Below are positions 16,687 to 59,853 of a stretch of 64,000 bases of DNA, one piece after another; position 1 is the first letter of the stretch, and each line of letters starts with the position of its first letter. This stretch comes from Flavobacterium sp. (GTDB lineage: Bacteria; Bacteroidota; Bacteroidia; Flavobacteriales; Flavobacteriaceae). Where the stretch lies: the NCBI RefSeq assembly GCF_004211145.1, contig NZ_SEBS01000009.1, positions 1 to 64,000 on the forward strand, written 5' to 3'. The position numbers and the translations under genes are program-made. The notes beneath the pieces were generated by a model. It was not told where the DNA came from. It saw only the letters and a list, made by a program, of their open reading frames with translations, and did no database searches.

Positions 16687-17673
16687 ATGTCAAAACCAAT
16701 AAAAAAGATTGGCGTGCTTACATCGGGCGGAGATGCTCCCGGTATGAATGCCGCCATCCGCGCCGTAGTGCGTACCTGTGCGTATCACAACATCGAATGC
16801 ATGGGTATTTACAGGGGTTACCAGGGAATGATTGAGGGCGACTTCAAGGAAATGGGACCGCGCAGCGTGAATAACATCGTCAACAAAGGCGGAACTATCC
16901 TGAAATCGGCGCGTTCAAAAGAATTCATGACGCCCGAAGGCCGCAAAAAAGCATATGACAACATCGTGAAAGCAGGCGTGGATTCGCTTGTGATCATCGG
17001 GGGCGACGGAAGTTTTACCGGAGCTGAAATCTTCAATTCCGAATACGGCGTGCCGATCATGGGCATTCCGGGAACCATCGACAACGACATTTACGGCACG
17101 AGCTTTACGCTTGGCTACGATACGGCACTGAACACGGTTGTGGAAGTCATCGACAAGATTCGAGATACGGCTTCATCCCACAACCGTCTTTTTTTTGTGG
17201 AAGTAATGGGCCGCGACGCAGGACATATCGCGCTTAATGCGGGAATCGGAGCCGGAGCCGAGGAAATCCTCATTCCTGAAGAAGATCTCGGTCTGGAACG
17301 TCTGCTCGATTCACTCAAGAAAAGTAAGGCATCGGGCAAATCGTCGAGTATCGTCGTGATTGCCGAGGGCGATAAAATCGGAAAAAGCGTTTTCGAATTG
17401 AAAGATTACGTGGAAGCGAATTTACCTGAATACGATGTTCGCGTTTCGGTCCTCGGACACATGCAACGCGGAGGCGCACCGACTTGTTTCGACCGCGTTC
17501 TCGCAAGCCGACTCGGAGTTAGGGCCGTGGAATCATTGCTCGACGGGAAATCGAACTACATGGTCGGGATCCTTGGAGATAAAATCACGTTGACGCCGAT
17601 CGACCAGGCGATCAAGGGACATTCGGAGATTGACCGCGAGTTGTTGCGGGTTTCGGATATCATGTCGACATAG
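16687..17673 (+). CDS. pfkA: ATP-dependent 6-phosphofructokinase
   Basis: PfkA phosphorylates fructose-6-phosphate in glycolysis. The 328-residue length is standard for the bacterial short form. The sequence begins IGVLTSGGDAPGMNAAIRA and contains IGGDGSFTGA, the catalytic GTIDNDIYGT, MGRDAGHIAL and LGHMQRGGAPTCFDR. The GGDGS form fits ATP rather than pyrophosphate as donor. It is directly followed by gapA, so two glycolytic genes are paired; a long hairpin lies between them. Its TAG stop is the beginning of that hairpin. Confidence 0.98.
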   Translation: MSKPIKKIGVLTSGGDAPGMNAAIRAVVRTCAYHNIECMGIYRGYQGMIEGDFKEMGPRSVNNIVNKGGTILKSARSKEFMTPEGRKKAYDNIVKAGVDSLVIIGGDGSFTGAEIFNSEYGVPIMGIPGTIDNDIYGTSFTLGYDTALNTVVEVIDKIRDTASSHNRLFFVEVMGRDAGHIALNAGIGAGAEEILIPEEDLGLERLLDSLKKSKASGKSSSIVVIAEGDKIGKSVFELKDYVEANLPEYDVRVSVLGHMQRGGAPTCFDRVLASRLGVRAVESLLDGKSNYMVGILGDKITLTPIDQAIKGHSEIDRELLRVSDIMST

Positions 17674-17745
17674 TGCAAAGTGCAAGGTACAAAGTGCAAA
17701 GAACCGCACTTCGTACCTTGCACTTTGTACGTTGCACTTTGCACT
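17672..17745. repeat. GTGCAAAGT inverted word repeat, 28-bp arms
   Basis: The arm 17672-17699 is complementary to 17718-17745 with one mismatch. The arm itself is made of repeated GTGCAAAGT and GGTACAAAG words. It starts inside the TAG stop of pfkA. It is followed by TTTT and could stop or stabilise the pfkA transcript. The same word is found at 29177-29215. Confidence 0.85.
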
Positions 17746-17782
17746 TTTGAACTATATAAAAATCAAATAAAAAACAAGAAAA

Positions 17783-18787
17783 ATGTCACAAGTTAAATTA
17801 GGAATAAACGGTTTCGGACGCATCGGACGCATCGTGTTCCGCGAATCTTACAACCGCGACAACGTTGAAGTTGTTGCCATCAACGATCTTTTGGATGTAG
17901 ACCATTTGGCCTATTTGCTTAAATACGATTCAGTTCACGGACGTTTTGCCGGTAAGGTAGAAGTGAAGGACGGGAAATTGTTCGTAAACGATAAACACAT
18001 CCGCACGACTGCCGAGAAAGACCCTTCAACCTTGAAATGGGACGAAGTAGGAGTGGACGTCGTTGCCGAATGTACCGGAATTTTCACGACGATCGAAACG
18101 GCTCAGGCGCACATCAAAGGCGGAGCGAAAAAAGTTATCATCTCAGCGCCGTCAGCTGATGCACCGATGTTCGTCATGGGCGTGAACCACACTGAAGTAA
18201 AAGCTACGGATACCGTGATCTCTAACGCTTCATGTACGACAAACTGTCTTGCTCCATTGGCCAAAGTACTCAATGACAACTTTGGTATCGTTGAAGGCTT
18301 GATGACGACAGTTCACGCATCTACATCGACACAAATGGTTGCCGACGGACCTTCGAGAAAAGACTGGAGAGGCGGACGCGCGGCCAGCGTTAACATCATT
18401 CCATCATCGACCGGGGCTGCGAAAGCGGTTGGAAAAGTAATTCCTGCGTTGAATGGAAAATTGACGGGAATGTCTTTCCGTGTTCCGACGATCGACGTTT
18501 CAGCAGTGGATTTGACCGTGCGATTGGAAAAAGAAACGACATATGAGGAAATCATGAGCGTTTTGAAGAATGCTTCGGAAACTGATTACAAAGGCGTTAT
18601 CGGATATACTGACGAAGATGTGGTTTCACAGGATTTCGTCGGAGATTCTCGCACGTCAATCATCGACGCCAAAGCCGGAATCGGTTTGAACGCTACGTTC
18701 TTCAAGATCGTTTCTTGGTATGACAACGAGTACGGCTATTCAAGCAAACTTATTGACCTGGCGGTTCACACTGCAGGTTTGAAGTAA
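17783..18787 (+). CDS. gapA: Type I glyceraldehyde-3-phosphate dehydrogenase
   Basis: GapA oxidises glyceraldehyde-3-phosphate to 1,3-bisphosphoglycerate with NAD in glycolysis. The 334-residue protein starts [17 protein letters not shown] (NAD-binding). It carries the active-site [12 protein letters not shown] with the nucleophilic Cys near residue 151, and ends [15 protein letters not shown]. All family features are intact. It follows pfkA, and a strong terminator follows it. Confidence 0.98.
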
Positions 18788-18798
18788 TAATTACCCCG

Positions 18799-57944: not shown

Positions 57945-57990
57945 GGTTTCGAGTTCGGCGTAAGCGTGCAACTCTAAATCCTAAACACTA
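57941..57990. repeat. TTTAGGGTTTCGAGTT word with its inverse
   Basis: TTAGGGTTTCGAGTT at 57941-57955 contains the TAG stop of the aminotransferase. AACTCTAAATCCTAAACAC at 57970-57988 is its imperfect complement, 14 bases later. The same words flank E1 at 52843-52938. Confidence 0.75.
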
Positions 57991-58086
57991 ATATCTTCCT
58001 CGTTTTAGGTTTATTTTCACATTTCCTCTTCATATAAATTGTAATTTAGAAAAGACAATTGGCTCCAAAACCTCTAAATTCAATAC

Positions 58087-59550
58087 ATGAGATTATCCGT
58101 AGAACGCAAGGACGTTAAAGTTTACCCTGACCCGAGACGCGTGATCGCGCGCTATTTCTTCAACGGCGAAGAACGGGCCGTTTCACTCATCAAGAAAATT
58201 CTCGCTTTGAATAACGAGACCGTGATTTCGATCGTGCTGCCGTTGCTGCAGGATTTTTCGAAACGGCACCGGAACATCACGAAGAAATTGCTCAAGCATT
58301 GCGAGAAGGTAAAACCGTATGTTGAGCTCGCCGGAAGCGATTATTCACAGCTTTCCGATTACCAGAAATACCTTATCGGATCGTACTTCACGCACGAATA
58401 TTCGATAGAATCAGCGGCATTTTTCAATCCGTCTATTATCATCGATCCTGATCAAAGCCATTTGGAAGAAGGCCAGCAGCGTCTTTTGATAAGTTTCAGG
58501 GCGGTAGGTGAAGGCCATATTTCGTCGGTGGTTTTTAGAAGGGCGATGATCGACCGACATAACAACATCACGATTATCCCGGCCGGAAACTACATCGATG
58601 AGGCCGAAAAAATGCACAATACGGTTTACCAGAAAAAACTTTTCCTTAAAAAAGGAGAGGAAGCCGATATCGATCCGCAGTTTCTGCAAGTCGTCGACAA
58701 GGAACTCGAGGAACGTTTCGACTATGAAAGTTTGAAGAAAATCATCATCGAAGCGCGTCAGAATACGACCGACGAGACGACTTTGTCCCAATACAAGCAG
58801 ATTTTGGCGCTGAGTGACAGTTACCGCAAGATCAGTTTTTCGCGAGACACCGACATCAGCGACCGTGTGATTTTCCCGATTTCGGATTTCGAAAGCAAAG
58901 GAATCGAAGATGCGCGTTTCGTGCGGTTCATAAAGGAAAACGGCCAGGTCGTTTATTATGCGACATATACGGCTTACGACGGCGCGCACATCATGCCGAA
59001 GTTATTGCAGACGACAGATTTTTACGATTTCAAAACCTCTCCGCTCAACGGCGATGGTGCGAAGAACAAGAACCTCGCCTTGTTCCCGAGAAAAGTCAAC
59101 GGAAAATTCGCAATGCTTTCACGCATAGACGGTTGGAACAATTACTTGATGTATTCTGACAACATAAACGTCTGGGAAAATCCTATCAAGATCCAATGTC
59201 CGGAATTTCCGTGGGAACTGGTGCAGATCGGGAATTGCGGTTCTCCGATCGAAACGCCTCACGGCTGGCTCGTGATCACGCATGCGGTCGGGCCGATGCG
59301 ACGTTATTGCATCGGAGCTTCGTTGCTCGACATCAACAATCCCGAAAAGGAGATCGGCCGATTGAAAGAACCTTTGATCATGCCGAATCCGGACGAACGC
59401 GAAGGTTATGTGCCGAATGTCGTGTATTCGTGCGGGTCGATCGTGCATAACGGCGATTTGATCATTCCGTATGGTTTGAGCGATCACAGTTCGGGATTTG
59501 CGACGGTCAATTTAAACATCTTGTTGGACAGATTGGTTAAAGGAGAATGA
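58087..59550 (+). CDS. GH130 family beta-mannoside phosphorylase or mannosidase-like protein
   Basis: A 487-residue five-bladed propeller enzyme. GH130 members phosphorolyse or hydrolyse beta-mannosides. The N-terminal extension (1-110) is helical. Signature regions are ESAAFFNPSIIIDPD, RLLISFRAVGEGHISS, FESKGIEDARFVRF (normally GxEDPR), MLSRIDGWNNYLMYSD and IETPHGWLVITHAVG. The Asp in IEDARF is the probable catalytic acid. There is no signal peptide, so it works in the cytosol. Substrate unknown; no glycosyltransferase lies next to it here. Confidence 0.9.
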   Translation: MRLSVERKDVKVYPDPRRVIARYFFNGEERAVSLIKKILALNNETVISIVLPLLQDFSKRHRNITKKLLKHCEKVKPYVELAGSDYSQLSDYQKYLIGSYFTHEYSIESAAFFNPSIIIDPDQSHLEEGQQRLLISFRAVGEGHISSVVFRRAMIDRHNNITIIPAGNYIDEAEKMHNTVYQKKLFLKKGEEADIDPQFLQVVDKELEERFDYESLKKIIIEARQNTTDETTLSQYKQILALSDSYRKISFSRDTDISDRVIFPISDFESKGIEDARFVRFIKENGQVVYYATYTAYDGAHIMPKLLQTTDFYDFKTSPLNGDGAKNKNLALFPRKVNGKFAMLSRIDGWNNYLMYSDNINVWENPIKIQCPEFPWELVQIGNCGSPIETPHGWLVITHAVGPMRRYCIGASLLDINNPEKEIGRLKEPLIMPNPDEREGYVPNVVYSCGSIVHNGDLIIPYGLSDHSSGFATVNLNILLDRLVKGE

Positions 59551-59580
59551 TTTTGGGACGCGATGTGGTTTAGAGTGTTT

Positions 59581-59853
59581 GACACGCTGCGCTTTAGACC
59601 GCTTTGCTTTAGACGCGCTTCGCTTTAGACACGCTTTGCTTTAGACACGCTTTGCTTTAGACACGCTTCGCTTTAGACACGCTTCGCTTTGGATTCGATT
59701 TTGCTAAAAGAAAAATCCCGTTCCAAAAGGAATGGGATTTCTTAGTTTACGCATTTACGCGATCCTTCCTGCAGTCTAAAGCGCAGCGTGTCTAAAGCGC
59801 AGCGTGTCCAAAGCGCAGCGTGTCTAAAGTGCAACGCGTCTACAGCAGCGCGT
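59581..59853. repeat. 16-bp CGCTTTGCTTTAGACA tandem repeat with its inverse
   Basis: About seven units of ACGCTT(T/C)GCTTTAGAC run from 59581 to 59690. The inverse GTCTAAAGCGCAGCGT recurs at 59774, 59790, 59806, 59822 and 59838. Between the two sets is the terminator. The last inverse unit ends in the TGA stop of the small gene at 59853. No gene is seen in the spacer. Confidence 0.9.
59711..59741. terminator. Bidirectional terminator inside the 16-bp repeat spacer
   Basis: AAATCCC and TTCC at 59713-59724 pair with GGAA and GGGATTT at 59729-59740 around one G-T pair. It separates convergent genes. Confidence 0.75.

Follow-up and report, generated by a model that had tools for sequence, protein, structure and literature searches.

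Inverted arrays of short words in Flavobacterium spacers as likely ends of small cassettes

Background

Why should the spacers between bacterial genes begin with a short repeated word and end with its reverse complement, when the words themselves differ from spacer to spacer? The question was raised by a preliminary description of 64,000 nucleotides of Flavobacterium sp. DNA (NCBI RefSeq assembly GCF_004211145.1, contig NZ_SEBS01000009.1, positions 1 to 64,000 of the forward strand; hereafter the window), which named seven such spacers, at 17672, 19785, 26979, 45612, 52843, 57941 and 59581, and proposed as their source template switching at hairpins, a non-autonomous element, or selection for spacer folding. 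In the reading reached here, each pair probably forms the two termini of a small cassette that lacks a gene, and these termini are probably kept alike by template-switch copying; we assign this reading a probability of roughly 0.55. It rests on the finding that word-built inverted ends of the same sort enclose four genes for GxxExxY proteins and eight genes of the PF05635 family in the same genome.

Results

Frequency of inverted word pairs

The window belongs to a Flavobacterium draft genome (G000) of 4.03 Mb (4033.9 kb), of which 460.9 kb was scanned: the window itself and contigs C43, C81, C18 and C38, which were picked for carrying the 16-bp word of site 59581 and are not a random sample. 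Spacers were counted as paired by a fixed rule, in which the two spacer ends were compared and a score of at least 14 was required. As the preliminary description had proposed, spacers were compared with shuffled ones, and inverted pairs proved far commoner, being present in 27 of 209 spacers versus 0.2 in the shuffles. Pairing ends across spacers gave 1.1, and there were three same-strand pairs, two of them also inverted. The shuffles and the re-pairing of ends rule out chance as the source of the pairs, and their inverted polarity is, judged by sequence, far beyond chance. The gene finder missed genes, and three of the 27 paired "spacers" contain a PF05635 gene.

Pairs were also present in 6 of 175 spacers of the nearest relative found, G383 (0.27 in shuffles), and eight relatives had 7 to 11 paired spacers each, in 67-160 kb (37 to 88 spacers). 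Few were found elsewhere (G153, 2/37 spacers; G407, 1/40; G248, 0/6; G309, 0/7; G356, 1/9; G101, 0/8). Convergent spacers carried a pair in 6/26 cases here and 17/82 in eight species, spacers between tandem genes in 20/139 and 50/392, and divergent spacers in 1/44 and 5/111. Arms in the eight species started at most 10 bp from the gene in 44 of 84 cases on the 3' side and 13 of 60 on the 5' side.

Genes enclosed by inverted arms

The stretch 51264-51823, called a spacer by the gene finder, encodes a GxxExxY protein (TIGR04256, E 5e-39; PF13366, E 9e-41) of the PD-(D/E)XK nuclease superfamily. Its gene (51307..51696, minus strand) lies between inverted 40-bp word arms with a pair score of 32. 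An arm of GCGGATTTACGCAGAT words (51268..51308, plus strand) stands at the 3' end of the gene, whose stop codon is at the arm's inner edge; upstream of the gene are a TATACGCCA motif (51713..51721, minus strand) and the inverted arm GAACGCGGATTTTGCGGATTTACGCAGAT... (51724..51763, minus strand). G383 lacks this cassette at the orthologous spacer. In G000 every one of the four PF13366 genes is enclosed, with different words each (scores 23, 29.5, 21.5 and 39; shuffle maximum 16.5).

In a PF13366 search of eight other genomes there were 37 matches, of which four were weak. Sixteen loci of relatives were cut out and read, one of which had no such frame at its centre, leaving 15 usable. With an automatic choice of start, 17 of the 19 usable GxxExxY loci scored at least 18 (14/15 in relatives, 3/4 in G000); the window gene scored 13 in this procedure, as a longer start was chosen. 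Ordinary genes were enclosed in 1/346 and 9/783 cases (10/1129), so that enclosure of GxxExxY genes is about 100 times that of other genes, and about 40 times that of genes of similar size.

Genes of PF05635 (23S_rRNA_IVP, a four-helix bundle) are tied to inverted ends in 23S rRNA intervening sequences, and this family was tested because of that link; GxxExxY came from reading the window. Six of the eight PF05635 genes of G000 scored at least 18 with 250-base flanks; the other two scored 9.5 and 11.5, their frames running into the arm, and lie inside pairs scoring 28 and 20. Two PF05635 loci on C18 and one on C43 sit between predicted protein genes and have word-array ends. A hidden Markov model built from the eight G000 proteins found no PF05635 gene in the examined stretches of other species. 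Fisher tests, which ignore kinship, gave 8e-9 for 4/4 versus 1/346, 5e-29 for 17/19 versus 10/1129, and 7e-11 for 6/8 versus 1/346; on sequence grounds, both gene families are frequently enclosed.

By eye, several words occur both around these genes and at gene-less sites. GTTGATT words are found at the PF05635 gene on C43 and at sites 45612 and 20423, AGATTGACAG words at the PF05635 gene on C83 and site 27599, and AGTGCAAAG words at the PF05635 gene on C84 and site 17672. Likewise, CGCAAAG..GCGCAAAGG words are present at GxxExxY locus L367 and gene-less site 50681, and CTCGCAGATTTTGCAGAT words at GxxExxY locus L355 and at G006 69493.

Four side observations concern enclosed genes. The TATACGCCA motif lies near the start of all four GxxExxY genes of G000 (L348-L351); in relatives a close form of it, TACACGCCA, is limited to L365 out of 15 usable loci. 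G153, alone among the eight genomes in having no PF13366 match, was also poor in tandem arrays over 100 kb. In two species (G240 83812-84270 and G355 73171-73635, in coordinates of the joined stretches), GCCACGAATT-type arms enclose an ordinary gene of about 150 codons. On C81 of G000 (17249-18101), a reading frame of about 160 codons is enclosed by GTTGATTTG arms and further inverted sequence.

Orthologous spacers in related species

At spacers 26979, 27599 and 45612, G383 has other words than the window facing each other by eye (AGTGC-type words at 27599), all below the cut-off of 14. Spacer 35380 has a strong pair in G383 (score 20) and a hairpin only in the window. Spacer 59581 of G383 holds other words with no clear partner, spacer 19785 shares the AGTGCCTG word with the window on the left, and spacer 17672 has a hairpin; no word pair was seen by eye at 52843 and 57941 in G383.

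Among 1142 orthologous spacer comparisons in eight species, 100 had pairs in both species. Both arms scored as unrelated between the species in 49 of these, at 11 spacers (counted by hand); six of the 49 come from site 21191 with its two vocabularies, described below, and in a few the aligner took a stretch other than the words. Sequence comparison shows a given spacer to hold inverted pairs of different words in different species. Taking each species in turn, the orthologs of its spacers with strong pairs were classed: 78 held the same words on both sides, 34 held them on one side, 88 held another pair, 71 had none and 5 were empty gaps. These five gaps were all at G015 91339, where the spacer is 191 bp in G015 versus 9-10 bp in the five relatives compared. 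On this alignment, a whole pair with its centre is a recent gain into a 10-bp gap.

Site 21191, a spacer of G006, was read in 30 species, and in each the spacer leads from words through a central terminator-like hairpin to inverted words. Two kinds of word occur, CAAAG and CTAAG, and the two arms agree in 28 species (15 and 13), the other two being mixed. On the tree of the flanking genes 11 changes of kind were needed, at least 10 of them on supported branches, which is no fewer than with shuffled labels. Within kind A, left arms match their own partners more closely than permuted ones (p 0.00035). The flanks at this site are nearest to the sister species in the six species tested, and identity beside the spacer was not reduced in five of six discordant sister pairs. 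In the sisters G126 and G241 the centre is kept (identity 0.84) and other words stand in both arms.

Site 50681 scored at least 14 in 28 of 29 species. A 29-bp inner core, found with a pattern allowing 2 changes and adopted after a wider alignment, is present in 13 of the 29; its arms differ at 1.23 positions within a species and at 3.05 between species (0/50000 permutations), with no difference in six species and 4 and 7 differences in two. Private core changes are present in both arms, namely CGCTAAGG in G126 and CGCAAAAG in G132. In the wider 15-species alignment the partner arm was nearest of all in 0/15, because the outer arm ends differ, though the permutation test again gave 0/50000. 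The outer vocabulary of the two arms agrees in 17 of the 29 species, disagrees in 1 and is uncallable in 11. Nested, concentric inverted pairs of two word families were found in one spacer at this site (L328, L334, L344 and L345).

The centre of site 21191 is inverted between two of the species. That of G240 matches G006 with identity 0.92 when inverted and 0.70 forward, and flanking gene order is kept; with other arm limits the values are 0.76 and 0.64. Over the 30 species, 8 of 57 clear centre comparisons were inverted, and among five listed, three involve G240 and two are weaker. Inverted-repeat template switching is reported to make arms alike and to invert the spacer between them (PMC8604942). 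Arms that are alike together with an inverted centre fit such a process.

Word families

The words had been described as locus-specific. Instead they form dispersed families with pattern matches at many loci, and sites 52843 and 57941 belong to one family. For the 16-bp word of site 59581, a 23-bp pattern (at most 3 mismatches) had 76 matches genome-wide, on 15 contigs and many within the same arrays, versus none for the reversed 23-bp control. GTTGATTTG was found at 40 positions in 461 kb, in about a dozen regions by eye, and its arrays often lead into a similar subterminal sequence. A 138-bp probe made from one G006 spacer had 83 to 148 matches in each of eight genomes (E up to 10), in which one arm often matched both probe arms, and many loci per genome share one phrase of about 35 bp. 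When 30 loci of one arm family were cut out, they gave 24 distinct places with words, 12 of them two-sided; their centres differ between loci, with terminator-like hairpins by eye in several. A single miniature inverted-repeat transposable element (MITE) unit with a common centre was rejected for the CAAAGGTTC family, whose centres vary from locus to locus. At L271, L272, L280, L288 and L290, CAAAG-type arms adjoin a palindrome of the kind GTAGAGACGCAC..GTGCGTCTCTAC, which is itself present at several loci.

Sites of the window

Inverted word pairs are present at all seven spacers named at the outset, at 57941 weakly. Arm length is 16 to 74 bp, which exceeds the 8-28 bp first claimed. The absence of coding capacity from the pairs held for six of the seven sites, which have no frame of at least 40 codons starting within; the exception, 19785, has three short overlapping frames. 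Of the 33 window spacers, 7 passed the fixed rule. Five of these are named sites; the other two had not been listed earlier (20423-20656 and 27599-28414). Named sites 52843 and 57941 fail the rule. A dinucleotide-shuffle test gave 0/1000 at six of the seven named sites, and likewise at 20423. Below, left arms are on the plus strand and right, inverted arms on the minus strand.

The highest score, 49, was that of site 59581, where GACACGCTTCGCTTTA 16-mers (59605..59678, in an array at 59581-59690) face the same 16-mers at 59774..59847. Site 19785 (score 27) has AGTGCCTG words at 19784..19819, in an array to 19836, and inverted AGTGCCTG words at 19997..20031. At both sites the arms are separated by what looks by eye like a terminator hairpin. 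Site 26979 (score 21.5) has TTGACAATGGACAA words at 26976..27034 (aligned part 27001-27034) and, inverted, AATTGATAATTGACAAATG... at 27110..27143. The arms of site 45612 (score 17) are identical: GTTGATGCGTTGATTTG at 45612..45628 and its inverse at 45760..45776. At site 17672 (score 16.5) the left arm, AGTGCAAAGTGCAAGGTAC (17672..17690), starts within the stop codon of the gene upstream, and the right arm is AGTGCAAAGTGCAACGTAC (17727..17745). Of the two additional spacers, 20423 (score 16) has GTTGATT words at 20432..20456 and 20628..20651; 27599 holds an array of 9.9 copies of a 77-bp unit, each with inverted AGATTTACAG words (27596..28381, repeat copies 27606-28371, no strand assigned).

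The two sites that fail the rule were re-measured with stretches set by hand. Site 52843, with TGTTTAGTGTTTAGGATTTC at 52844..52863 and TGTTTAGGGTTTAGGGTTTC at 52891..52910 (tandem array to 52937), then gave 0/2000 shuffles. Site 57941, the weakest, has TTTAGGGTTTCGAGTT at 57940..57955, overlapping a stop codon, and TTTAGGATTTAGAGTT at 57970..57985; it was matched by 390/1000 shuffles with the spacer halved and by 1/2000 with the stretch 57936-57995 set by hand.

Elsewhere in the window, an ATTCGTT heptamer is repeated 12.1 times at 63184-63268 (97% matches) with no inverted partner (score 6), an array that G383 has as well. An 89-bp unit in 2.7 copies (5055-5299) lies beside two tRNA genes at 5405-5603. 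Known RNA families in the window, at gathering scores, were three tRNAs only, with no rRNA family.

Discussion

The gene-bearing and gene-less pairs look, from their sequences, like one class: cassettes with word-built inverted ends. One end of a cassette would be copied from the other by template switching, which rather than RecA-dependent recombination would join the arms. The enclosed predicted proteins may move or cut the arms, gene-less pairs may descend from gene-bearing ones, and new words would come by insertion or by copying from other loci. Of the sources first proposed, template switching at inverted arms draws support from arms that agree while their words change (at two spacers) and from the one inverted centre, and a non-autonomous element from the word-built inverted ends that enclose genes of two families. 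We think that both are true.

A more specific form of this reading can be offered only tentatively. The pairs would be foldback mobile cassettes of flavobacteria, with ends that are arrays of 7-16-bp words differing in each copy, mobilised by the enclosed GxxExxY nuclease or four-helix-bundle protein. The enzyme would recognise the structure of the paired arms and not their sequence, template switching would rewrite both ends with no loss of function, and most intergenic words would be gene-less remains. Were the element known by its end sequence, ends that differ between copies and agree within a copy would be odd; recognition by folded shape would make them natural. On a weaker reading, GxxExxY and PF05635 genes may merely tolerate or attract such ends.

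Several observations weigh against cassettes with template-switched ends. No transposition or excision was seen, nor any target duplication, for which the junctions of a single site were inspected by eye. In the arm family that was cut out, 12 of the 24 places are one-sided by a strict pattern, and in the multi-locus families of G000 a left arm's own partner is a closer match than the average of other loci in 13/22 cases and the closest of all in 11/22. Ordinary host genes are sometimes enclosed, also when sized 80-180 amino acids (0/59 and 4/113; 4/172). Three GxxExxY loci (L355, L359 and L361) score 18.0, just above shuffle maxima of 16-17, and L364 misses at 16.5. GTTTAGGG, AGTGCCTG and the 16-mer were seen around none of the 12 GxxExxY and PF05635 genes of G000. 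Where both species have related words (51/100), the arm match within a locus beats that between species in only 19, and the overall 68/100 wins within loci are carried by the 49 comparisons of unrelated words. Clear inversion of a centre was seen once: with arms in both species (n=68), 1 centre was inverted, 9 were forward and 58 undecidable, and control comparisons (n=996), under slightly different cut-offs, gave 0 inverted and 644 forward. The own-partner test at site 21191 is weak within kind T (p 0.084). In the five sister pairs of different vocabulary other than G126/G241 the centre differs too (best 0.60-0.74), so that whole-spacer replacement is common. The species are related and the comparisons therefore not independent, and counts and p-values are overstated.

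The rival that survives best is template switching alone, in which slippage gives rise to the words, and switching at hairpins both copies them in inverted orientation and keeps them alike, with no mobile element and with the genes as bystanders. It accounts for the agreement of the arms and the inverted centre, for the terminator-like hairpins seen by eye between many arms, and for the one-sided half of the arm family. We nevertheless consider it unlikely, as each genome has the phrase of about 35 bp at many loci, the 10-bp gap at G015 91339 gained a pair complete with its centre, and GxxExxY genes are enclosed far more often than others, also when matched for size.

Less probable again is allele exchange, by which homologous recombination would swap spacers between species and carry both arms along. 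At site 21191 the species nearest by spacer is the species nearest by flank in only 2/30, and spacer identity in the six sister pairs of different kind is 0.57 to 0.73 versus 0.58 shuffled, both of which speak against change in place. The spacer tree splits once into two vocabularies, a tree that the words themselves help to shape, and in one of the six sister pairs (G065/G345) the right flank is less alike over 200 bp. Against exchange, the flanks adjoining the spacer remain nearest to the sister in the six species tested, the centre of G126/G241 was kept under a change of words, and private changes are found in both arms at site 50681.

Selection for folding, by which a useful RNA or DNA stem (terminator, mRNA end or insulator) would keep the arms complementary, finds some favour in pairs being common at convergent spacers and rare at divergent ones, but it is the least probable account, and the evidence does not support it as the main cause. 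At convergent spacers such as 21191 a terminator-like hairpin in mid-spacer separates the arms, which could not pair in one terminated transcript because each mRNA would end before the other arm; such a hairpin stands without arms at the same spacer elsewhere (35380 here; 59581 in F. selenitireducens); and scarcity at divergent spacers also fits promoter avoidance.

Known systems resemble the pairs in part. Eukaryotic foldback transposons and MITEs have inverted ends of short tandem repeats and a variable centre. The pairs share with them terminal inverted repeats in many copies and empty sites in relatives (G015 91339 and the GxxExxY cassette absent from G383), but here the ends differ from copy to copy, with no transposase and no target duplication shown. 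The short tandemly repeated repetitive (STRR) sequences of cyanobacteria are tandem heptamers in spacers. The 23S rRNA intervening sequences with an S23/IVP open reading frame likewise have a PF05635 gene between inverted ends, whereas the three PF05635 loci on C18 and C43 sit between predicted protein genes.

Quasipalindrome or inverted-repeat template switching shares alike arms and a centre that can invert, but involves, as described in PMC8604942, short arms and small mutations, whereas the arms here are dispersed tandem words with turnover of the words. Repetitive extragenic palindromes and bacterial interspersed mosaic elements (REP/BIME) with their REP-associated tyrosine transposases (RAYT) are similarly short, dispersed, intergenic and often paired; according to PMC3733652 they are tagged palindromes, whereas the unit here is by eye a tandem 7-16-bp word. 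By eye, no arm among the 27 pairs resembles a GTAG- or CGTC-tagged palindrome, and for a RAYT/Y1 transposase G000 has one weak PF01797 match (27.7 bits). The intergenic TAACTGA and other heptamer repeats of Beggiatoaceae, cyanobacteria and five Bacteroidetes are direct repeats, tandem heptamers in spacers as here; one genome has 169 direct sets and one indirect (PMC4679880). Within the sections covered, that account describes neither a regular inverted pairing nor agreement of arms nor genes between them, and sees no evident mechanism for the spread of such repeats. In the partly covered literature, nothing was found on inverted word pairs in the spacers of flavobacteria or on a link of this layout to GxxExxY or PF05635.

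Tying word repeats to GxxExxY and PF05635, two families of unclear role, gives a testable source of the repeats, and the link suggests a role for the predicted GxxExxY nuclease. The spacers also offer a natural record of both arms of an inverted repeat changing together. The cassettes, if real, would be an unusual sort of mobile-element-like cassette with rewritable ends.

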